Source of the DNA: Austropuccinia psidii
Taxonomy: Eukaryota > Basidiomycota > Pucciniomycetes > Pucciniales > Sphaerophragmiaceae
DNA: 64,000 bases
NCBI GenBank assembly: GCA_023105745.1
Contig: JALGQZ010000002.1
Location: 43,390,997 to 43,454,996, forward strand
Reading direction: 5' to 3'
Shown: positions 9,947 to 50,958 of the stretch, piece after piece
How positions within the stretch are numbered: the stretch's first letter is position 1
How the letters are laid out: every line of letters starts with the position of its first letter
The notes under the pieces: generated by a model
Told to the model about the DNA's origin: nothing
The model's input: the letters and a program-made list of their open reading frames with translations, nothing else
Database searches by the model: none
Translations under genes and position numbers: made by a program

Positions 9947-11446
9947 TTCATTCCAAAGGCCCATAAAATTTTCAAAATCAGTTCCATGACCAATTTTCTT
10001 CATGCAATGAGCAGATACATCCTTGTTGATGTGCCAAATGCATAGCATGACTTTGGAGTCTGGGAAGAGCTTCTTAATAGAGGTTTTCAAGACCAGATCC
10101 CTGTCAATAACAATAACTGGAGGGGGAACAAGATTGGTGTTGTTGAGGACCTTTTCTATGTATTGATTTAATGCCCAAGTATATGAAGTTTCATTTTCAT
10201 TCTTAATCAAACAAAAAGCCCCAGAAAAGGTCTTATTGGTTGAGCTGAATCTAACAATATGAAAAGGGGCATTTTGTACTTATTGGTTTTATAAGTACAA
10301 TCCATAAGAATGACATGAGGAAAGACATGAGGAAGTTTTATGGCCAGGGGGTGAGTAAAACACAAGGAGGTAATGTGTCCCTCAGAATCCCTTGCAGAGG
10401 ACCAAACAAAATTTTCTTCTTTGAGAGTGTCAATAAGAGCATCAATGGGCCTTCTGCCTTGCAGTTTGTCTTTCTTGATTTTCTTTACTTGGTTGTAAAT
10501 GTCTTGAAGGATTACAGGCCTGTCAAACTCCCTCTGGCTGCATAATTGGGCCTGAATTTGCCTTGGCATGAGCAGTGATTCAGATATTTGAGCAATTTGA
10601 GATGTTTCTTGCTCATTGAATTTCCTGAAAGCAGGATTTGCCATGATATTTTCAGTGGCATCATGGCTATGTTCAGAATTTTTGACTTTAAGAGTCCAAG
10701 TGGTACTCTTGGCATATTTCCTGGCATAAAGTCTAAAAGTACAGTCAAGCTTTCTTAAGGTGACTGTTTTGGAGGGGCTTTTGTTGGGATTTGGGGTGCC
10801 AGACCTGTCACAACATATTTCAATTTGGTTGTGGGTCATATTGGACCTCAAGGTGGACACAGCATACCCCTGAACCCTGGCAACATTATGCACATGTTGC
10901 CAAAGAAGCTCAAGGGTCTGAAATTCACCTTCAGTGGGGGGTGAAGCATTTTTTAATGAAAAATATGTATAAAAGTGAAAAAAAGGGGAATTGGGGGATT
11001 TGGAATGGGGTAAGAACCTTTCGAAATGTGAAAAAGAGGTGAAAGAAGGTGTGAAAAATGAACAGAAGTGGTTAATAGTGAAAGAAAGTGGTTTAAATGT
11101 GGGATTAATAGATGAGGGAAGGTAAAAAATTGAAAATTGAGAGCCTTCAAAGCAGGTTTTTGTGGTGAAAAATGCAGTGTTTGGGGGAAAAAAAGAAAAA
11201 AAAGTGTGAAAAGCTTTGCAAAATGGCTTTGTTAATGCTGTTTTTCCAAAAAAACAATGGTTTGGGGTGGGGATAATGTGGATTTTTGGGGTGTTTGGGC
11301 TTGTTTTTTTGGGGGAACTGGGCAAAAAATCTGAAACAATTTGGAGTTAGAGAGTTTTTGTGGGGAAAAAACCTGTTTTGGGCATGTTTTGGCCCAATAC
11401 AGGTCCAATTGTGTTTCATTTTTAATTAAAAATGGGCCCAGGGCAC

Positions 11447-38654: not shown

Positions 38655-39236
38655 TTTTTTATGGTGCTTGGTGGGGAGAGGAACTACCAAAATTAAGTCC
38701 CACTCCTGGTTTGCACCCTTAGAGGTATTCTACCCTTTTTGTTGTAAGCATCACCTTGGCCACTCTGTGAGCACTCTGCAATTTTTTGGAAACAGATATT
38801 GGCTTGGCTTTCAACATTTTTTTTTATACGGATCATCTACCAACACCACTTACAGATCATAAGCTTATTGTATAGACAATTTTTTTTATGGCCATTTTCA
38901 CTTGGGCAAATGGACCATTCATTTTTTCATTTCACATTCCAAGTCATTCTTTCAGCAAATTTATTTTCTTTTATGGCACTGGCGGGAGTGGTAATTACCA
39001 AAAGTAAGTTCCTCTCCTGGTCTGCACTTCCCTGAGGGGTCTACAATCTGTCAAAACATCACCTTGGCCACTTTGTGAGCACCTGGCATCAAATTTCTTG
39101 TTTCAGGTCCTTGGCCAATTTCAAAATCAGTTATCAACCTCTGTGATAAAGATTGGAACCTCCTGAATATTCATTTCTCTTTTATTTTTTCCTTTCTTAA
39201 TTTCATTTTCATTTCAAATTTTCTCTTTATTTACGT
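38655..39236. repeat. Gypsy-A 3' flank containing a diverged direct duplication
   Basis: Two blocks near 38664-38790 and 38967-39110 share the order TTATGG, ACTACCAAAA/ATTACCAAAA, CTCCTGGT and CATCACCTTGGCCACT, at roughly 65 percent similarity by eye. No LTR start matching TGTCACAACC is found here. No coding sequence. Confidence 0.55.
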
Positions 39237-40955
39237 TGTGGGAACTCCTTTTGGTGTGGGATGAAATAAGGCAGTACCTTGAGGGGGAAATTATTGGTAA
39301 GTCTGTTTTGAATTTCAGAATTGTCCAATAACCATGGGTGCTAAGGTGTATTAGCTGCCCCTCTAAATAATACTGAATAGTCAGCCTACAGAGAATCACA
39401 AAATAAAATAAGATTTGTGGCCTAAACAGATAGAGAAGACTTATCAGCAGTCTCTAAATCAGACCTTTCGATAACACTTCAGTAAAACTCTGATTTTAAA
39501 AAAAAAACTAAAATTTCTGATACAGTAAAAGCTAAGATTTTTTTTTATTATTTTGATAAAAGTAATGATAATATTTTTTTTTGTTATTTAATAGAATTAA
39601 TAAGAATTATTTTTTTTCGGTTTTATTTTGATTATAATGATTTTATATATATTAATACTAATAAAAAGACTACTGGATATTCTTTTTTTTATATTTTTTA
39701 TGTTAAGTTGATATCACTACTTCTTTTCTTTTAATAATACTAAGCTTCTGAGCTTTTCACTATTGTTATACTACTATTCTTTGAAAACACTAAGCTACTG
39801 AGCAAGGCTACTGAGCTTTTTACTACATTAATACTACTTATTCTTCAACAATACTAAGCTACTGAGCAAGGCTACCAAGCTTTTTTTACTACTAAAACAC
39901 TACTACTACTCTAGATATCCTGCTAGTTCAGGGATGGTTGTGATCCTGGATAGTGGGAACTTGTTCCATGATGCTGGGGAAAATGAGGGAGAGAGGACCT
40001 CTATTTATAGCAGTTGGGCCTCCATAGGGCTTCTCAAAATAGGGTACTCAGAAAAAATCATAGCTGAGAGGCTTTAGCTGGTGAGACGTGTAGTTTTGAT
40101 GTAGCAATGTGTTTGCTGAGAGAATTGTGCTGGTGGTTCTTTTTTCTTATCAAAATCATGTGATGTATTTGAGATAATTTGGCTGGTGAGATTTTCTTTT
40201 TTCTCCCAGAAAGTGGAAAAAATACAGCTCCTGACAATTGAACTTTCTTCTAGTCATATGATATATATGAGAAAGTTATGCTGGTGTTTCTGTTTCTTAT
40301 CAAAATCATGTGATGTCTTCGAGATAATTTTGCTGGTGACATTTTCATTTTTGGTGACTTTGTTACGTATTTTCTGAGAGAATTATGCTGGTGGTGCTTT
40401 TTCTTATCAAAATCATGTGATGTATTTGAGATAATTTGGCTGGTGGTGTTTTCTTGAAGGTGGGGAAAGTATTTGTTGGTTCTATTTTTACGTATGTCAT
40501 GAGAGAATTATGCTGGTGTTTCTGTTTTAGTATTGTATCATTCAATATGGAGATTGCATCATTCCTATCAATTTTGATGCATGTCATTATTACTAAGCAA
40601 GCATTTGTTCTTGGAAATTATATTGTAATTTTATGCATAGCCTTGAGGTATTTCTTCTTTCAATTGAGTCAAGGTGGGGAAAATACAGCTCTGATGCTGT
40701 GGTCCGTCTTCATATACCTTTATTTAGATTAACTCCTTTTAATTGCATAATTTGTTATTGATGATGCAATAAGGTGGATAAATTCTTTGATACTATACTG
40801 TTTTGATAAGATCTTGAGGCTGTGTATTGTATATTTCTTTTTGAAATTTGTAATTGTAATGTGTAAATCTGTTTTGCATAATTCTTTTTATTATCATTTT
40901 TTTCTTTTGTTTTATTGGTAAGCTTGAAACTGGCACTAATGGTATGGAATACCAC
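39237..40955 (-). repeat. Gypsy-C1 3' LTR (minus-strand element)
   Basis: Plus strand: TGTGGGAACTCC to GGAATACCACA, 1719 bp, with TG...CA ends. The adjacent minus-strand integrase ends 57 bases away and the polypurine tract (minus strand AAATGGAGAGAGGG) lies at about 40956-40971. The U3 part (about 40110-40530) holds tandem repeats of about 105-150 bp with TCATGTGA at 40156, 40306 and 40413. The TATA box is at 40001-40009. Confidence 0.88.
40001..40009 (-). promoter_or_regulatory. TATA box of the Gypsy-C1 LTR
   Basis: On the minus strand it reads TATAAATAG followed by AGG. An equivalent box sits at 42490-42498 in the Gypsy-C2 LTR. Confidence 0.65.
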
Positions 40956-40971
40956 ATCCCTCTCTCCATTT

Positions 40972-40989
40972 AATGCTGTCCCCAGCATT
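40972..40989 (-). other. Hairpin with GGGA tetraloop before the Gypsy-C1 polypurine tract
   Basis: Minus strand AATGCTGGGGACAGCATT: a perfect 7-bp stem closed by GGGA, which fits the GNRA loop class. It lies between the pol stop and the polypurine tract and is identical in Gypsy-C2. Confidence 0.7.
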
Positions 40990-41011
40990 CCAGTTGAAAA
41001 GCTTGCCAGTA

Positions 41012-41592
41012 TCAATCATATTCATTTTGTTCAATTTCTTTTCCCTCCAATATTGACTCTTCGTCTTCTATTTCTTCACTGCTTTCAATTTCTGACTCTG
41101 AAATTGATTGAACTTTCTTTCCTCTGGGATAAAACCTTTTGATGTGACTTGCTGCAAATTTTCTTGTAAGTTTAGTGCCATCCAATTCTTCAAGCTCATA
41201 AGGTCCATTATTAATTTGATTTATGACTCTATAAGGTCCATTCCAACGGTTCTTGAAGAGTAAACCCCATTGTGACTCAAGTGGTTTATTATAAACTAAT
41301 ACCAAGTCCCCTGGTTCAAGTGGATTTTTCAGTCTATTTGCCATCCTTTTGTCCAAATATTGAACCGATTTGTGTTGTGAATCTCTTAATTTCTTTGCTT
41401 CTGCTAATCTTGTTTCCTCTTTTGCTGCAATCCTTATAGTTCTTGCTTCCAATAGCTCTTCTGTTGTTGAGATTTTATTCCATTCTATGGCCAGGTATGT
41501 GTTTGTTTCTATGTCAATTGGTAAGACAGCCTGCTGACCAAACTGTAGCTCAAATGGTGAGTATCCTGTTGTTCTTTTTACCGAAATTCTAT
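41012..41592 (-). pseudogene. Gypsy-C1 integrase C-terminal part, cut by Gypsy-C2
   Basis: The minus-strand frame begins at the Gypsy-C2 LTR border (NRISVKRTTGYSPFELQFGQ) and reads through the integrase tail (WGLLFKNRWNGPYRVINQIN, HIKRFYPRGKK) to an acidic end and stop at 41012-41014. It is about 60-70 percent similar by eye to the end of the Gypsy-C2 pol. The upstream part of Gypsy-C1 should lie to the right of Gypsy-C2 but is not seen in this window. Confidence 0.88.
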
Positions 41593-43574
41593 TGTGGGAA
41601 CTCCTCTTGTGTGGGATTAAAATGAGGCAGTACCTGGAGGGGGAAATCACAGGTAACTAGTTTTGAATTGCTAATAACTCCTGTAACCAAGGGTGGCAAG
41701 GGTGTATTGCCTGCCCCTCCTAAAATACTGAACAAAATCTTCCTTGGAGCTCACAAACCAAAATAAAATTAGTAAGTGGCTTTACAACTGCAGAAGACAA
41801 AATTCAGCAGTCTCAGATCAGACCTATTTGATAAATAATATAAAGAAATAAAGTCAGTTATTTTTGGTTAAATTTGAGATTTTAATGAAATACTTGTCTG
41901 TTTAATTTTAATATTTTTGGTTAAATTGAGGTGAGTTGTTTCTTCTTGGTGATAAATCCTTGGTAGGATGGGTTATTTAAGGGTTTCTGAAAAATTTGAT
42001 TGGTGTTGATAAAGGTAATTTTGTTAAGGTATAGCTATAATAGAGTAAAATAATTTTTTTAAAGGTTTGTTATTTTTTTTAAGAGGGGTTAATAATAAGA
42101 TAAAATTGTATTTGTTAAATTTAAGAGGTAAGGTTATTTGATAATGGATTTTTTAAAGGGGTAAGTTAATTTTAAATCTTGATAAATGGTGTTGATTTTA
42201 CTGGATAAAATATTTTAATTGAGTAGTAACCCTAATTTTGGGTACTGGATAATTTTTATTTTTATTTTAATAATAATAAGATTCCACTGAGCTTAGCTAC
42301 TGGGCAATCTTTAACACTATACTTCCACTGAGCTTAGCTACTGGGCAAGTAAAATTCACTATAATTTTCTGGACTACCTCCCAGGTGAGGGATGACTTAT
42401 TCCTGTGCTTGTAATGTGCAGAGGATATATTGTGCATGGGATATAATTTGCATGGGATATAATGTGCATTTTGGGGGGAGAAAGCCCCTCTATTTATACC
42501 TTTTTGGGAGCCCAGGGGGCCCTCCATGGGAGCTGTCTTTTTCCACTTTAATTCCTCTTGATTTCATCATGTGACTCTGTTTTTGGTGAGGACCTTTCTT
42601 GCATGGGTCAGGTGATTTAAGGTTTGGTGATAATTTTCTCTCTGCACAGCCTCCATTTATCACATGATCATCTTTTGGTGGACTGATTATGATGTGATAT
42701 TCTTGAATTTTCCTTGCATGCATGAGGTGATTCAATTTTGGCTGGGGATTTTTGTTGTGCACAGCCTCTTTCTTGTCACATGATATTCTGTTGGTGGATG
42801 CAGTATCACATGATGACCTTGTAACTCCTTTGCATATGTCCTATTTTAGGTTTGGTAGAAGTGGCTGTGTAATTTATGCAGGTGTCATGTTTTTTTTCTT
42901 CTTTTTGAATTTTAAAATGGAGTCAGGTGATAATTTCTTGCATTGGTGAATTTACTGTTATGTATGAGATGGTGTGTTTTTTAAGTTTGACACATGCTGT
43001 GCATAGTCATGTGGTTGAGATTTAATTAGAATTGTGTACTGCATGCAGCCTGTTGTAACTAGCTTTGGTTTGCATGAGGTGATTAGTGGTGTATGTAATT
43101 ATGATTCTGTTTTAAGGTTTTAAGTGGTGTTACTGTGGATATAAGATAAGGTACTCCTGTGGCTGTGTTGTAAATGAGCTGCAGGAATTCCATGGAGTTG
43201 AGCTTTGCATCATGTGACTTTTCTATGTGGAGTTTTAGGTTGCTGTGTAATTCATGCAGGTGTCCTTTTCTTGCTGCATGAGTCCTGTGGCTGTAAGGGG
43301 GTGTAAAGCTGGGTGGTACCTTGTTTGTTGTAACTAGTTTACTATATGTAACTTGATTTTACATATGCATAATGAAATTGAATAATTTATTTAAACACAT
43401 ACACTGCCCTTTGGTGCCTGTGCAATGGTTTTATGAGTTAAATCCAGCTTCTTGCTGTAAAATTGACCTTTTGGGTGTAAATTTGAGTGTAAGTCTGCCT
43501 GTAGGCTGGAATTACTGCTGTTTTGGGGTACTATGAGCTTGAGCCTGGTGAAAAAAATGGTATGGAATACCACA
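41593..43574 (-). repeat. Gypsy-C2 3' LTR (minus-strand element)
   Basis: TGTGGGAACTCC to GGAATACCACA on the plus strand, 1982 bp. It is related to the Gypsy-C1 LTR at both ends but diverged inside. It has a TATA box at 42490-42498 (minus). It also has a diverged tandem duplication near 42595-42685 and 42711-42800, and TCATGTGA or its complement at 42567, 42660, 42776, 42806 and 43210. Confidence 0.88.
42490..42498 (-). promoter_or_regulatory. TATA box of the Gypsy-C2 LTR
   Basis: TATAAATAG followed by AGGGG on the minus strand, at a position equivalent to that in Gypsy-C1. Confidence 0.65.
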
Positions 43575-43589
43575 TCCCCCTCTCCATTT

Positions 43590-43622: not shown

Positions 43623-46600
43623 TTATTCCTCATCTGATTCTGTGGTTTCCTCCAATACCCCTTCCTCATTTATTGATTCATCTTCTTCACTTTGTTCTTC
43701 TTCTGTGTCTTCTTTTGTGTTTATCAACTTTCCTCTTGGGTAGAACCTCTTGACTTGAGATGCTGCAAATCTTCTTGCTAATTCTGTTCCATCAAGTTCC
43801 TCAAGTTCATATGGTCCATTGTTTATTTGTCTGATTACTCTGTAGGGTCCATTCCATTTGTTTTTGAAAAGTAGCCCCCAATTAGTTTCTATTGCTTTGT
43901 TGTAAATTAGGACCAAATCTCCTGGATTGAGTGGTGTTCTTAGTTGATGTGCCATTCTTCTATCCCAATATTTTATTGAGTCTTCCCTTGATTTTTTGAG
44001 TTTTTCTGCTGCTTTTCTTCTCATCTCTTCTTTTCCTTCCAACTGCTTGGCTCTGGCTTCCAATAATTCCTCAGTTGTGGATATTTTGTGCCATTCTACT
44101 GCTAAAAAGGTTTTTGTTTCAATGTCAATTGGTAATACTGGTAGTTGTCCAAATTGGAGTTCATATGGTGAGAAACCAGTTGTCCTTTTAGTGGAGATTC
44201 TGTCAGCCAAGGTAACCAAAGGTAGATATTTTTTCCATTTTCTTCCATTTTCTCCACACATTTTGACTAATGCATCTTTAAGTTGTTTATGGCCCCTTTC
44301 AACCATTCCTTGAGACTCTGGGTAATAAGGTGTGGTGACTCTGATCCTTGATCCTGCTTTCTTTACTGCATCTTGAAGTTCTTTTCCAAACTCTGGCCCC
44401 CCATCAACAGTTACTTCTTTTGGTGAGCCATACCTGCATATCCATTCTGAGGTGAACCATTCTGCAACTACTTTTGCTGTTAATTTGACTAGTCCAACTG
44501 TTTCTGGCCATCCTGAAAAATCATCTCTGGCCACAACCATATATTTCCATCTTCCAGATTTGATATGGACTGCATCCATACTTACTCTTTCAAAGATTGT
44601 TGATGTTGCTGTAGATTTTCCTTGTTCTCTTTGTAAGTTTTGACTTCTCTTTTGGCAGGCTAGGCAAGATTGAACCCATTTCTTGACTGATTTCTTCATT
44701 CCTTCCCACCAATATCTTGCTTTACATCTTCTGTAAGTTTCATTTTCCCCTCTATGGCCCATGTCTTCATGAAGTGACTTTAAAATGTAGCTTTGAGCTT
44801 CTTGACTTGATATCACCAGTTGAGGGTTTGGGTTGTTTCTTCTTTTGAGTTGGCCATCTTCCAAGAAAAAGTTGGATGACCTTCTTTTTATCCTTCTAAA
44901 TTCTTCATCTTTACTTGATTGTGGTTTTTTCATTGTACTTAAGTATTCTTGCATTCTCTTCCAAAATCCTTCTTGTTTGGTTGGTACTTGTACTCCTGAA
45001 AAATGGAGTGAATTTACATTCTTAGCCCCAAATCCAGGGTGTGGCTTGATCCAATCTTCTTCTTCATCAAATTCTGGTGCATCTTCATCTTCTTCTTCTG
45101 AGTTTTTTGGTCTTCTGGATAGCCCATCTGGCATAGTGAAAGTCTTTCCTGGTTTGTGTACCAAATCAAATGAAAATAGCTGAATGAAAGCCACCCATCT
45201 TGTCATGGGGGCATTGGGTAAGCAAGGGGTGTTGATCATTTCAATTAAAGCTTTGTCATCAACTTGTAATTCAAAATGTTGTCCCCAAAGTATTGTCTGA
45301 AGCTTCTTGAGAATTCTTGCAACTCCACAGAGTTCCAATTTGGGTTGTGAGTATTTTGATTCTAATTTTGAAAAAGTTATTGATTCATATAATACTGGTC
45401 TGTCTTTTCCTTCTTTGTCTTCTTGAGTGAGTACTGCTCCTGCAGCAATGTAGCTTGAATCTACTGCTAGCTTAATTTTCCCTGCCCCTTTGTCATAATC
45501 CAATTTCTTGAGAGTTATTTCTTCTCCAACTATTCTTCTGAGCTTATGGAAAGCTTCTTCACATTTTTGATCCCAATCCCAGTCAACATCTTCTCTGGTG
45601 AGCCTTCTGAGTGGTGATGCAACTTGTGAAAAGTTTTCAATAAACATTCTTACATAGGCACAAAGACCAAGAAATCCTCTTATTTCCTTTTTGTTGAGAG
45701 GTGTTGGCCAATTTTGAATCTTGTTAATCTTTTGTTTTGAGATTGTTCTTCCTTTGAATGATACAACATGCCCTACTATGTCCAAAGCTGGAACACAGCA
45801 TGCAAACTTGGATCCTGAGATAGTAAGTCCTGCTTCTTCAATCCTGAATAAAATTCTTTCTAAAGTTATGGCATATTCCCATATAAATCTTCTTATTGAT
45901 GGGTTTTCTGGTAGTGTTTCCTGGTTATAAAGTGATCTTGGTCCTTTTATTCCTCCATCATCAATAAAAATTCCTACACTTTCTGGTATTTCTTCTTGTA
46001 GTATCCAGGTCATTTGGGCTTGGTATACTGCTACTGAGTTGGTGGCTCCTTGGGGTAGTCTTGTGAGTTGCATCCTTCCAAGGGGTGTTTCAAAAGTGGT
46101 GAGGGGTCTTGTAGTGACATCTAATTATCTTTCATCATACCCTCCCATGATGTCTCCTAGTCCATAACATGCTCTTCCTGCAAATGCATCTACAAATTCT
46201 TCAATGTGAGGTGGTAAGCCAGCATCATTGATGGTGACTTTGTTGAGTTCTTGAAGGTCATGGACAATTCTGAGTTTCCCATTTGATTTGGCCACACAAA
46301 AGATTGGGCTTGTGTAGCTTGAGGTGGATTGCTCATAGAGTCCAGTCCTGATTCTTTCTCTTATTAATTCAGTAAACTGAGGTAAAATTGATTTGGGTAT
46401 AGGAATAGGTTTCTTCTGCCAAGGTTCATGAGGTATTACTGGTATCTTGTAAGGTTTTCCATATGAGTGTTTGAGTAATCCTCTTTCTTCTTTACAGAAA
46501 GCTATTTCTTTTTCCCTTAAGGTAATAGAATTTTTGAGTAAGTTGATTTCTTCATTTGATAACCATCCTGGTGGGCCAAAATTGACTGCTTGGAGTCTTT

Positions 46601-46790
46601 CATGGGTGACCTTGAAGGTTTCTTGAAATATAGGTGGGTTGGGTGATAAAGGTGTTTCATAAGGATCTCTTGACAAAGGTGGTCTTTCCAAAGGTGGGTT
46701 AAGGTCTTGAGGCATTGGCTCATTGACTGGTCTCACCTTCTTCAGGACTGATTTGTATTTGGCTGCTAAAATTTGGTGATTCATCTTCAA
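43623..46790 (-). pseudogene. Gypsy-C2 pol (RT, RNase H, integrase), one in-frame stop
   Basis: One minus-strand frame of 1056 codons from ATG 46788-46790 to the stop at 43623, broken only by TAA at 46125-46127 (GGYDER stop LDVTTR, probably from CAA). RT: SSYTSPIFCVAKSNGKLRIV, YGLGDIMGGYD, GIFIDDGGIKGP. RNase H: LAVDSSYIAAGAVLTQ and MPDGLSRR. Integrase: HEDMGHRGENETYRRC, CLACQKRS, VSMDAVHIKSG, VDGGPEFGK, ESQGMVERGHKQ, with all three catalytic residues. The end is acidic with no chromodomain. The FIDDGGIKGP type of RT is a basidiomycete gypsy lineage. No gag or protease is visible upstream, which is unusual. Confidence 0.93.
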
Positions 46791-46814
46791 TTAGTTATTT
46801 TGTTTCTTCTTCTC

Positions 46815-46839
46815 TTTTTTTTTTTTTTTTTTTTTTTTT
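46815..46839 (-). repeat. Poly-T run (poly-A on the pol strand)
   Basis: Twenty-five T lie directly upstream of the Gypsy-C2 pol start. Longer runs occur at 47847-47884 (38 T) and 48115-48148 (34 T). Confidence 0.9.
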
Positions 46840-47843
46840 AATTATTTCTAAGAATTTGCTAGTGTCCTGAAATCTTGAGGTCTTCACAATTCTTCTTTCT
46901 TCTATAAAAAATGTAGTTTAAGGTCATACAGGACCTACAACTAGGTGTGTAACCCCTGTATATTAGGTATACAAGTCCTGCAGTTTAAGTCATGCAAGGA
47001 CCTCCTGGCCTAATCCAAGGGCTTATCTTTATTCTTGAGCTCCTTTGGGCTTGCTTTTGGATTCCACCTGACTCTTGTGTTATTCTTCAATCTTCATGAT
47101 TCCCACTTGATGCAAGATTCTTCTGGTTGTTTTGTTTCTTGATAAGGAATTTTCTTGTCTTCATTGATGGCTTGAGACTTCACTTTGTTCATTATGGCCG
47201 ATTTGATAATGATAAACACCTGTAAAACCCCTTGTTCCTGTTACACAAAGGAAGCAGTTTATTGTCATGCTAAGGACAAAAATGGTCCTTCAGCACTTCT
47301 CCTGACTAGGACAATCCCCTCCAGCTTCTTGGCTGTTATTTTTTTATAAGTTTCCCTGCCCAAGTCCACAGGGGAAGCAGTTTACTGTCATGCTGAGGAC
47401 CTCTTGAGTCTTCAATCTTCTTTAAAATCCCAAGGGCAATTTGAGTTGAGTGTTTTCATAATCTTGTTGGTCCATCATGTTGAGTGAGTCCTGAGTCAAT
47501 AATTAATCCAGTGAGTCATCCTTCAGTCCATAAATCCTGGCCCGTGATTCTTGAATTCCAATTGAGTTTCAATCCAGAATCAAAGAAATTTCCAAGGTCT
47601 GGTGTTCTCCAAAGGTCAATCCATAAGAAACTCCTGCTTTTCTTCATAAATAATATTCTTCATTTTTAGTATTCTGAATAATTGTCCTATGATAAGTTGT
47701 TTCCCAATTCTCTTGCTATTTCTTCAAAATAATTTATGTCCTTTTGTTCTTTTGTATTCCTGAATTATACCTGTTATAAAGAAATGAAAAATAAAAAATT
47801 GTAATAATAAGGTGATTTAAAATTGATTTTAATATTAATTTAT

Positions 47844-47888
<45 letters not shown>

Positions 47889-48113
47889 AATATTTGTTTG
47901 GATGAGGGCCCCCCTCTCCATTTAAAAATCTTGAGTTGGTTTTCAAATTTTTGAAGAAGATATGTTCTCATTCCCCCAAAACTTCCACTATAAGGGATAG
48001 TGTAAGAAATAAGTTTACCCACCCCTTATTTTTTATAGTGATTTTGATAAGGATAAATAATGATACATAAGATTTACATAATTTTATTTTGATGATGATT
48101 CAATAATAAGTTG

Positions 48114-48151
<38 letters not shown>

Positions 48152-49082
48152 GTGAGTATAAAATAACCATTAAGTGAGATATCTGAGTAAAAATCAAATT
48201 TCAAAAGAAATGATCCTGAATCACAATCAAGATCATGGAACTGTTTGGTTGAAGGTGGTAATTTGTGCCAATCAGTAAAAATTGATGCTCTTGAGAGGTT
48301 TTATAATTAATATGACATAATTGAATGATCATAATTTGAGTCCTTTAATCATATAATGACCCTTATGATGCCACAACTCTTCCTTTTTGGAATCATCATT
48401 GTGACTCAGACTTTATTTCAAGTCCATCCCCTTTATGGTTCAGATTTTCTGTTACCCATAAATGCATTTTAGTTGTTAAAAAAAATAAACAGTGAAATTG
48501 AAAATTTGTACAATTTTAAAAAACTCTTGTTTGCTTTTGGGGGGCTTTTCAATTCCATTTGGAATAAATAGCACATTGAGGTGTTATTAATATGTAAATT
48601 CCCCAAATTATGTCATCAATTTATGAGTTTTTAATATAAATAACTCCTTCAGAGTTCAATTAATGCCTTCATGGCACAAATACTTCTTCCTTTCAAACAA
48701 GTTCCAATCACTCTCTTGTAATTGAAGAAATATTTCAAATAAATTGATCATTTTTTTTTTAAAAAAAAAAATAATACTTGATGTAGAGTTTTTTTTTTTT
48801 TTTAATTATTGTTATTATTGAGTTGGAAAATTAAGCCAACTTAATGGCTCTTGCTGTAATAGTAGGAAAAGTATAATAAAAGTAATAAATAGAATACTCT
48901 TGAGATCATGAATGGGATATGCCCCTAATTCTCAGGGAAAATAAATAAATAGTTGAATTTTGGGATAAAAAATAAAATAAAATAAAAAATATGTTCAAAA
49001 GCTTAAGTCAGTACATCTTTCCAATTCTTTTTATAATGACATAAAATTAGAAAGTAGAAAAATAAAGTAAAATAAAACCTCA
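46840..49082. other. Gene-free tract upstream of the Gypsy-C2 pol, with early hairpin-motif copies
   Basis: No coding frame is supported on either strand. It includes poly-T runs at 47847-47884 and 48115-48148, an inverted T10/A11 block near 48751-48771, and four diverged copies of the GCAGTTT-hairpin motif at 46914, 46980, 47254 and 47377. Confidence 0.6.
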
Positions 49083-49872
49083 GGTAGTTTATAGTCTTGC
49101 CTAGGACTTATCCTCCTTTTGTAGTCCTTGTCAAATCTTTTTGAATACTTTAAATAGGCAGTTTATGGTCTTGCTAAGGACCATTGGTTGATTGTTTTTT
49201 ATTTTATTTGAGTCCTTATTGATAATTCTAATGGTGGGCAGTTTATGGTCTTGCCAAGGACCATTGGTTAATGTTTCTTGATTATTGTTGATAATTTGAG
49301 TGGGCAGTTTATGGTCTTGCCAAGGACCATATGTTGTCTTTGCTTTGGTCCTTGTTGATAATCTTAGTGATTTGTTTTTTATATTTGAAGGGGCAGTTTA
49401 TGGTCTTGCCAAGGACCATATGTTGTGTCCAGGAACCTGATTGTTGCCTTTGGGGTTTCATGGCATCAGATTTATCTTCAAAGCCAAGTTGTATAAGTAG
49501 TTCAAGCAGTTTATAGTCTTATTGAGGACTCCTATAAAAAAATGAAATATATCAGTTTTAATTTAATATCCAAAAAATAAAGTAAGAATGAAAAATAAAA
49601 CAAAATAAGCAGTTTATAGCCATACTGAGGGCTTGCATTGTCCTTTATGGCCCTGTAGCACATAAAAGGTAAAATATGTCAGCTCAATTTAATATCAAAG
49701 ATAAATAAGCTCAAAAAGATAAAACAAGCAGTTTAAAGCCTTGCTGAGGGCTCTCTTTTTTTTTTTAATTTATAAAATACATTAATAAAAAAAAAGAAAC
49801 ATCAGTAATATTCAGCTTTGATTATAAAAATAGAAAATACAAATAAACAGTTTTAAGTCTTGTTCAGGACTT
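46914..49872. repeat. Interspersed GCAGTTT-hairpin motif, 13 copies
   Basis: Copies start at 46914, 46980, 47254, 47377, 49083, 49158, 49238, 49304, 49393, 49506, 49609, 49728 and 49847, the last nine spaced 66-119 bases apart. Each is GCAGTTT (or one base off) followed by a stem-loop; the clearest reads ATGGTCTTGCCAAGGACCAT. Stem arms vary together: ATGGTC/GACCAT, TAAGTC/GACTTA, AGCC/GGCT, AGGTC/GACCT, TTGTC/GACAA. It lies upstream of the minus-strand Gypsy-C2 pol and may be its RNA leader. Function unknown. Confidence 0.8.
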
Positions 49873-49894
49873 ATTTGCTATAAATTTATGTTGG

Positions 49895-50958
49895 GAAGCC
49901 CTTGAGGTTGGCTTCATTGTGCTGCTGTAAGCAGCTTCCAGTTAGTGATTTTTCTTTAGTCTATTGAGCCTTAGATAGTGGTTAGAGTATTTGGGTGGTT
50001 AAAGCACTTAAATACCCCCTATGGCACTTAAAATGTGGTCGGGTACTCTTGGTTTGGGCTTTGAGGTGGCCAGAACACTCTTTACTACCTGCGATCAGTT
50101 CAAGTGGCTGATGTTTAATTATAAGGGACTTTGGCTTCCCCTGTAAGGCTTCACGCCTCATCTGGTAGCTGTATTTGGGCTGTTACAGGTGTTATTACAC
50201 CTTTAAAGTGCTGAGAAATACAGTTGTGGTTTGTTTTTGTTTTGACTAAGTTTTTGAAGTCGTTCATGATAGTTCTTCTTTTAAACAGTAGGTGCTATAA
50301 GCCCTGTAAATCTGCTCGGAAGCCTCTCGGGTGGGTTGCAGAGTCATTTGGATGGGTTTTGATACCCCGTATCCTGTCTAGAACAGTGTTGGGTAGCTGC
50401 AGTTTGGTTGAGAATTGAGTTGGTTTGGGTATGGGGTTCTCTAATACTCTTTAGGGTGCTTTGAATTTGATCGGAAGAGCTACTTTGTTCATATGGGTGC
50501 CACAGCATCCTCTAGACTTCTCGGAAGCATTTGTTTATGCTTCAATACCCATGAAGAGCACTTCCTTGTGCTTTGAACCACTTTGAGTGGTTTTTTTTTT
50601 TTGTTGATTGGTCTTGAATAACATTTAAACAGCTTCGGGCTAGAAGCTTTGGGCTCACTAGGTGTCGAAACACCATGTGATTAAGCTTGAATGCTTCCAC
50701 TTCCAGTACTCATAATTGAATCAGATTTGGGTACTTTGCTAGCCGGATGGTGTCGATATGCCTTAAATTAGTCGAGTGTGGGCTCCCAGGCTCCAGAAGT
50801 TGATAGTGACCTTCATAAACAGTTGAAATACCTCTGAGTGAGGTTTTGGTCACCTTCCAAGTGCTCCAATGCGATCCTAACCGAATTGACTGGTAGTGCT
50901 GACTGTAACCTCCTTTTCCGGTAGTTGCATTTGGGGTGCTACAGGTGTTATTACACCT
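49895..50958. repeat. Second chain of short perfect hairpins, CpG-richer sequence
   Basis: Perfect inverted repeats with short loops lie at 49895-49915, 49921-49935, 50187-50202, 50361-50373, 50524-50543, 50557-50572, 50578-50590, 50661-50674, 50830-50844 and 50943-50958. The segment AGGTGTTATTACACCT occurs twice (50187 and 50943) in similar context. Stem sequences otherwise differ, so it is structure rather than sequence that repeats. No coding frame. Confidence 0.6.

Follow-up and report, generated by a model that had tools for sequence, protein, structure and literature searches.

A covarying crossing-stem RNA pseudoknot repeated between gag-protease and pol in a Gypsy retrotransposon of Austropuccinia psidii, and its possible role as a barrier to decay and scanning

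A stretch of 64,000 nucleotides (nt) from the rust fungus Austropuccinia psidii (contig JALGQZ010000002.1, positions 43,390,997 to 43,454,996; hereafter the window) raises the question of why a Gypsy long terminal repeat (LTR) retrotransposon should carry a long array of one short motif ahead of its pol open reading frame (ORF). An original prediction had described thirteen hairpins with compensatory base changes upstream of a Gypsy pol, and had offered RNA structure, a DNA cruciform or a protein-binding array as possible readings. Comparison of the copies in the window, elsewhere in the genome and in viral contigs shows, as far as pairing can be read from nucleotide sequence, a crossing-stem RNA pseudoknot on the sense strand, present in many copies in the interval between gag-protease and pol. 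We propose, with a probability of about 0.6, that the array may act as a series of coremin-like barriers that hold up both 5'-3' decay and ribosomes scanning along the RNA, and perhaps defines the 5' end of a pol RNA.

The window contains 13 alignable copies of the 23-26-nt motif, all on the minus strand, which is the sense strand of pol. A 23-base pattern, searched with three mismatches allowed, finds 11 of the 13 and nothing else in the 64 kb (0.01 matches in shuffles); the two short-loop copies, at 46912 and 46978, were missed by this pattern and added by eye, and the same structure fits them. A structural descriptor made up of a first stem (S1), its loop, UAAACT with one mismatch allowed and at least three pairs of a second stem (S2) gives 11 matches in the 64 kb, 10 of them inside the array and all 10 on the minus strand, and misses three copies, while Markov-shuffled windows give a mean of 1.3 and a maximum of 4. 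The copies are as follows.

49847..49870, minus strand: motif copy 1, sense GTC-CTGAACAA-GAC-TT-AAAACT-GT
49728..49751, minus strand: motif copy 2, GCC/GGC variant
49609..49632, minus strand: motif copy 3, GCC/GGC variant
49506..49529, minus strand: motif copy 4, S2 mismatch and hence missed by the descriptor
49393..49416, minus strand: motif copy 5, found by pattern and descriptor
49304..49327, minus strand: motif copy 6, found by pattern and descriptor
49238..49261, minus strand: motif copy 7, found by pattern and descriptor
49158..49181, minus strand: motif copy 8, found by pattern and descriptor
49084..49107, minus strand: motif copy 9, one C.A mismatch in S2, spacer UAAACUAC, missed by the descriptor
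47377..47400, minus strand: motif copy 10, found by pattern and descriptor
47254..47277, minus strand: motif copy 11, found by pattern and descriptor
46978..47001, minus strand: motif copy 12, 7-nt loop and 1 nt before UAAACU, a form also present in related loci
46912..46934, minus strand: motif copy 13, 6-nt loop CUGUAU, CU-UAAACU-ACA, the last copy before pol, a form also present in related loci

In the sense RNA these copies follow the consensus xGUC-CU..NNGCAN-GACx'-N-UAAACU-GCNN. S1 is GUC/GAC in 11 copies and GCC/GGC in the other two, with one further outer pair, and its three inner pairs are Watson-Crick in 13/13. S2 joins the loop sequence NNGCA to the UGCNN after UAAAC and crosses S1, so that an H-type pseudoknot is possible in every copy. 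The outer S1 pair, called the fourth in the original prediction, is A-U in five copies, G-C in five, U-A in one, G-U in one and unpaired in one, and the middle (second) pair is U-A in 11 and C-G in two, which bears out the stem covariation that had been claimed. Pairing reaches 98.1% in S1 and 80.6% in S2, where the outermost pair fails in 9/11 copies; in the short-loop copies (46,934 and 47,001) S2 appears by eye to be kept by different letters. The unpaired positions C8, U9 and A22-A24 are also invariant. Scored as a whole, the structure gives a covariation score of 0.363 against 0.170 ± 0.027 in shuffled alignments, none of 500 being as high, and sliding it by 1-3 columns brings the score down to 0.245 or less.

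The motif is abundant in the genome. In the 1,015,390,075 bases searched (84 contigs) the strict form GCAGTTTATNGTCNTGCNNAGGAC occurs exactly 2,014 times, 1,001 forward and 1,013 reverse, compared with 0 + 0 for a reversed control. Sixteen other loci (L203 to L218), chosen among the matches listed for the first contig, carry in that order at least 22, 19, 16, 14, 20, 22, 14, 19, 10, 10, 19, 25, 20, 14, 14 and 15 copies; these figures (10-25) are lower bounds, the variant last copy of L215 being missed, and in some loci extra copies were seen upstream of the stretch shared with the window. When the search pattern leaves free the middle S1 base and all but one of the five S2 pairs, these loci yield 246 octaloop copies in sense and 0 in antisense. 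The middle S1 pair of the 246 is U-A in 148, C-G in 94 and something else in 4, which makes 98.8% paired against 75.8% if the two sides were independent, and the outer S1 pair is paired in 87.8% against 54.8%. Within S2, pair 12-28 (G-C 190, A-U 34, U-A 14, G-U 5, others 3) is paired in 98.8% against 77.5%, and pair 11-29 in 95.9% against 80.3%. Collapsed to 85 distinct rows, the copies score 0.393 against 0.199 ± 0.013 when shuffled (0/500 as high), with slid controls of at most 0.148.

Taken with the 104 viral copies described below, the window and the 246 genomic copies support the view that an RNA structure was kept by compensatory change, and the covariation persists when genomic copies from the 16 loci are aligned. 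The predicted hairpin is real in that it corresponds to S1, but the second, crossing stem also covaries, making this a pseudoknot and not a plain hairpin. Similarly, the GCAGTTT unit is present, but the relevant strand is the minus strand, where it reads AAACTGC and follows the hairpin. A cruciform or simple palindromic protein site is disfavoured by the crossing stems, by the single orientation of 13/13 copies and by the 246 sense against 0 antisense matches; the DNA cruciform in particular was rejected because two crossing stems cannot coexist in one such structure.

An array of this kind could simply reflect its own history of duplication. Across the 26-nt motif the 11 octaloop copies (the two short-loop copies left out) have a mean pairwise identity of 0.78, or 0.77 for the eight that remain when one of four recent duplicates is kept, whereas every flanking block lies at 0.26-0.35, against a background of 0.29. 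Simple tandem amplification, which would have undone the original prediction, was rejected on these figures. Duplication nevertheless took part, since stretches of 97-204 nt that are 70-76% similar recur in some adjacent units, and on this sequence comparison the array was made by duplication with the motif then kept by something. In 16 aligned segments of about 610 nt, from the window and 15 loci (one of the 16 being excluded for incomplete coverage), the motif columns are free of gaps and differ by 2.4% against 4.5% elsewhere, a value matched or undercut by 160 of 5,000 random placements. This lower divergence offers moderate evidence for recent conservation.

The host element could be read in the window from the end of the array to its 3' LTR, the features being these.

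46125..46784, minus strand: N-terminal part of pol, ATG at 46784, ended by an in-frame stop; its start resembles A. psidii gene models
43623..46073, minus strand: RNase H-integrase part of pol, with Pfam domains RT_RNaseH, Integrase_H2C2 and rve
41594..43577, minus strand: 3' LTR, roughly 2 kb long with boundaries placed by eye, 89.7-93.5% to the LTRs of related elements

The window copy is without the upstream gag-protease part. Its array ends near 49,889 at a composition change, the GC content rising from 0.31 to 0.43, and the element is broken off there, likely by an insertion that cut it. At 49889 a TG start adjoins the array end, and a second copy of that end is absent from the window. 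A full-length 5' LTR is likewise absent from the window, where only a 247-nt piece at 74% was found. A second related Gypsy fragment lies at 40938-41650 and 39236-39474, its pol end about 70% alike and its LTR piece about 74%, and the LTR of the first element appears to have been inserted into it. The most identical named relatives of pol are A. psidii fragments (81-83%) and the best-scoring named one is from Puccinia striiformis (67%); a copia protein of the window best matches A. psidii models, at 72% over the whole length and 85% over part. The GC content of the window is 35.4%, and for the A. psidii genome of about 1.02 Gb the consulted part of PMC8063080 gives 33.8%.

Upstream pieces of five related elements (L219, L221, L223, L225 and L227), read separately from the corresponding array pieces (L214, L212, L216, L217 and L204), have a 5' LTR in reach, and all five show the order LTR (about 2 kb), gag-protease ORF, small ORFs, array, pol. 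Their LTRs are those that match the 3' LTR of the window; in a sixth upstream piece (L229) no LTR of this family was seen. The gag-protease ORF is intact in L221 (1,312 residues) and L227 (1,299 residues) and broken in the other three, where it was recognised by shared sequence. The L221 ORF, the only one of the five tested, has a retroviral aspartyl protease domain (RVP) at residues 834-930, and from its position we infer that the part N-terminal to this is gag. With LTRs at both ends of the five elements, the RNase H and integrase of the window and the protease of L221, these are features of a Gypsy LTR retrotransposon. Small ORFs between gag-protease and the array (L221:8522-9058, L223:6959-7339 and one in L227) are alike in several elements, and two from this interval gave no Pfam match.

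In these elements 3.6-5.8 kb (lengths only) separate the stop codon of gag-protease from the first octaloop motif, and several kilobases before pol are without a long ORF. In the window no ORF of 150 residues or more overlaps positions 46,791-49,889, although shorter stop-to-stop frames exist there, and on this ground a coding signal was rejected as an account of the array. The N-terminal part of pol (219 residues, 93-97% identical) follows the array in 14/16 loci, and the RNase H-integrase part, whole or in pieces, also follows in 13/16 (tblastn). The array is thus, by the reading of these five elements, intergenic and placed before a separate pol ORF. The original prediction was right to place the array in non-coding DNA upstream of a Gypsy pol, but the position is the gag-protease/pol interval and not an LTR leader. 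Rust Gypsy elements in general resemble these in their LTRs, protease, RNase H and integrase; what differs in the five is that pol is a separate ORF, set apart from gag-protease by several kilobases that include the array. Scoring of AUGs was possible in nine loci (seven of the 16, having no match to the start-of-pol pattern, were excluded), and in these 46-89 AUGs separate the first motif from the start codon of pol; ordinary scanning would therefore not reach pol.

The same motif is found in viral contigs. Its exact pattern matches at least 120 stretches of IMG/VR, compared with 14 matches in 257 Gb of prokaryote genomes, all of them in metagenome-assembled records; the latter figure bounds chance and indicates enrichment in viral contigs. 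The core GUCCU..GCA.GAC.AUAAACUG that these copies have in common with the fungal ones is set by the search pattern, and it is the free pairs, which covary, that carry the information. The 124 matches reduce to 101 unique contexts, or to 107 unique copies with the GCC form included, of which 104 (100 distinct) were used for covariation, those lacking a flank or repeating another context being dropped. In the 101 contexts, S2 pair 11-29 is A-U in 76 and G-C in 23, and pair 10-30 is G-C in 66, A-U in 23 and U-A in 2. Among the 104 copies 96.2% of cells pair, and the covariation score is 0.262 against 0.120 ± 0.008 (0/500). The restored S1 form GCC/GGC occurs in seven stretches and the broken form GCC/GAC in none, and a hexaloop pattern with one free pair finds three viral stretches, all C-G.

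Of the 107 unique viral copies, 47 begin 6, 7 or 8 nt (25, 11 and 11 copies, respectively) downstream of the stop codon that closes an open frame of at least 60 codons, and 77 begin within 30 nt of one; on the antisense strand 100/107 have none within 30 nt. A stimulator of readthrough or frameshifting was rejected for the viral copies, as stop distances of 6, 7 and 8 cover all three frames. A looser descriptor finds 156 copies in 127 viral loci, some of which overlap or nearly duplicate one another, against 0 in one shuffled set; 108 of the 127 have a single copy. Five loci (L015, L022, L040, L104 and L006, with L022 and L040 both taken from one near-identical contig) have three to eight copies on one strand; L015, with eight, has several closely after stop codons by eye, and one with a double-changed S2, GGACA/UGUCU. 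The viral pseudoknot differs from the fungal one in being mostly single-copy, with at most eight copies per locus, in often lying 6-8 nt after a stop codon, and in its last loop base, which is C in 9/104 viral copies but in 0/13 window and 0/85 fungal copies.

The genes beside the viral copies look diverse by eye, in a comparison made without a family search. L048 has 741 related records, and of the eight listed seven lie on tRNA-Arg and one is unannotated; L185 has 15, mostly phages of Firmicutes at low cover. A pol search in viral contigs returned four stretches, none of them a relative, and the S-CAM9 region has one UAAACUGC, its stems absent by eye. A known RNA family was rejected as the identity of the motif: with Rfam 15, positions 46700-50600 of the window gave at E ≤ 1 only two microRNA matches (E 0.012 and 0.35), far below gathering scores, and 10 of 120 viral loci gave only tRNAs at gathering level. 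In searches of Rfam and of open-licence papers, the latter mostly at the level of title and start of abstract, we found no name for the viral pseudoknot, no report of the motif in phages or retrotransposons among papers on coremin, exoribonuclease-resistant RNA (xrRNA) and phage structured RNA, and no mention of such an array in the rust genome literature checked, which included part of PMC8063080.

The closest described relative of the motif is coremin, an exoribonuclease-resistant RNA of the form GUCCGAAGACGUUAAACUAC with a YGAD or YGNNAD loop. According to PMC10520033, it makes Xrn1 stall, needing no partner to do so in vitro, and retards scanning ribosomes; forms with hexaloops, with two heptaloops and with the one octaloop tested are functional, and mycoviruses carry it as well. 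The fungal motif resembles the plant-virus form GUC-C..A.-GAC-NN-UAAACU.C but lacks the loop G of coremin. Like the coremin hp1 stem, S1 is GUC/GAC, with its three inner pairs in 13/13 window copies and the outer, fourth pair in 12/13; the loop begins with C, has A second-last and never ends in C, each in 13/13; and UAAACU and the C after it are each found in 12/13, one copy having one base before UAAACU and not two. Small size and an intergenic or untranslated location are further likenesses, and repeats of coremin are reported in some viruses (PMC5869530, in the part available). The fungal motif differs in its loop of 6-8 nt, which can pair with the bases after UAAAC, and in being part of a long tandem array in a chromosomal retrotransposon.

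The two motif types meet in the viral set. One locus (L113) carries GUCCAUGCAUGACGUUAAACUGC, which links the fungal-type motif and coremin; on its reverse strand, at about 10,480-10,760, a non-coding stretch holds three coremin-like copies found by the descriptor and an irregular one seen by eye, and is a small array resembling the fungal one. No named relatives of L113 were found. Canonical coremin, GTCCGAAGACNTTAAACTAC, occurs in eight viral stretches (L183-L190, some near-duplicates), in 7/8 of them a few bases after a U-rich, terminator-like run. It is followed by a GAGA-loop hairpin of three pairs in L184 and L189 and of two pairs in L185-L187, and in L184 a downstream open frame resembles, by eye, a phage head-scaffold protein.

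Flaviviral xrRNAs have a larger, ring-like fold of several helices. This fold, compared by description and not by sequence, separates them from the fungal motif, while their nature as RNA barriers, the one considered belonging to a tandem pair, would be a likeness (PMC5760640, in part). The flaviviral xrRNA tested there blocks Xrn1, yeast Dxo1 and bacterial RNase J1, and the barrier mechanism therefore need not be enzyme-specific; as RNase J1 is stopped too, such a barrier could serve in bacteria.

In the model that we favour, which is not among the roles named by the original prediction, Xrn1 degrading decapped element RNA would stop at a hairpin of the array; the RNAs that escape would have their 5' ends at the array or inside it and would contain pol. 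The array would also stop ribosomes scanning from the cap, so that full-length RNA would make gag-protease and not pol, and many copies of the motif would tighten the block. More speculatively, the trapped RNAs would be the pol mRNA, replacing the frameshifting or readthrough of other LTR elements. In its widest form the model would have pol expressed through decay, with Xrn1 trimming genomic RNA to 10-25 pseudoknots, the trapped 3' piece as pol mRNA, and the same class of barrier shared with bacterial DNA viruses, in which it would hold up RNase J or ribosomes in the space between genes, and, as coremin, with plant and fungal RNA viruses; this we put forward tentatively, and rather doubt.

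A number of observations weigh against a barrier. Support comes from covariation, the function of the array being inferred, and translation of pol from decapped RNA would need a cap-independent start that is here hypothetical. Two of the five covariation measures, double-changed pairs and pair types, fail to beat shuffling: they are equalled in 14/500 and 88/500 shuffles of the window copies, 453/500 and 385/500 of the 85 genomic rows and 153/500 and 331/500 of the viral copies, respectively. The covariation figures are, moreover, no probabilities, because copies in related elements are not independent. Within S2, the 246 copies show no excess over independence for pair 13-27 (88.6% vs 89.6%), near-invariance of pair 14-26, which is partly fixed by the search pattern, and a weak outermost pair (37.0% vs 31.7%). 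The viral control for the middle S2 pair was not empty, with GCA/UAC in 26 stretches and GUA/UAC in 15. Counted in unique contexts these are 18 and 9, and since the next S2 pair is kept in 18/18 of the GCA/UAC contexts (the outermost in 13/18), one C.A mismatch is tolerated in S2; window copy 49,107 has such a mismatch.

Coremin requires G at loop position 2, where 13/13 window copies have U, and the hairpin after its spacer is inconstant here: in the next 30 nt the best hairpin is no better than -1.2 kcal/mol in 8/13 copies and lies at about -2 to -3 in a further two; values of -6.7 to -10.4 are reached by three of the four copies nearest pol, and z is below -1.4 against mononucleotide shuffles in 5/13. 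For these two reasons we have not filed the fungal motif as coremin. As to pol itself, a 35-residue match is all that follows the array in L206, and nothing in L213 (tblastn). All nine scored loci have a short upstream AUG in the interval from the last motif to pol, L215 having two counted after its last motif, one of them inside the variant last copy, and the A-run preceding pol ranges from 5 to 34. The idea that the pol AUG is the first past the last motif holds in the window and fails in the nine loci, so that the AUG-free stretch is a peculiarity of the window copy, and a constant long poly(A) tract before pol was rejected for the inconstancy of the A-run. The window has poly(T) runs (sense poly(A)) of 25, 38 and 34 at 46815-46839, 47847-47884 and 48115-48148, and such runs vary in length and place among the loci.

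Other explanations have to be weighed against the barrier. The pseudoknots might bind a protein of the element or host, for packaging, assembly or translational repression, with no mechanical block. Multi-copy arrays suit cooperative binding, and small ORFs lie between gag-protease and the array; we nevertheless think this unlikely, as viral contigs with diverse-looking genes would all need one binding protein, and the similar coremin blocks Xrn1 partner-free in vitro (PMC10520033, in part). A role as translation signal, raised by the original prediction, is possible. That the array is mainly translational, a ribosome stop between gag-protease and pol or an aid to internal entry with exonuclease resistance incidental, would fit the roughly five-fold higher in vitro translation of a coremin spacer mutant over wild type (PMC10520033, as far as available) and the viral motifs that lie near termination in no fixed frame. 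The kilobases that follow the gag-protease stop before any octaloop motif is met tell against it, and a ribosome block alone leaves pol expression unexplained, and we consider this rather improbable.

We would place at the same low level the expression of pol from a spliced RNA or internal promoter, with the array a by-product or intronic. Although this accords with the several kilobases before pol without a long ORF, it leaves unexplained the covarying stems on one strand and their viral counterparts; splicing of pol and a barrier role for the array could also both hold. Least credible, and very improbable in our view, is a mutational artefact in which the matching pairs, without any RNA function, came from template switching between hairpin arms or from the deamination of cytosines where the genome is methylated. 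Perfect inverted repeats are known to arise by template switching. The genome is also AT-rich, with CpG-depleted elements (PMC8063080, in part). Yet half-changed states are rare (4/246 for the middle S1 pair), the crossing S2 would require a second, independent correction, and the invariant unpaired bases of the window copies would stand outside such a process.

If the exonuclease block is true, exoribonuclease-resistant RNA of one class would be present both in bacterial viruses and in a chromosomal retrotransposon, and this element, which is abundant in a fungal genome of gigabase size, would have a possible route to pol expression without frameshifting. The presence of one motif class across plant RNA viruses, viral contigs and a fungal element would mean either convergence or exchange, and a single result with Xrn1 or RNase J would inform on the plant-virus, viral-contig and fungal motifs together.

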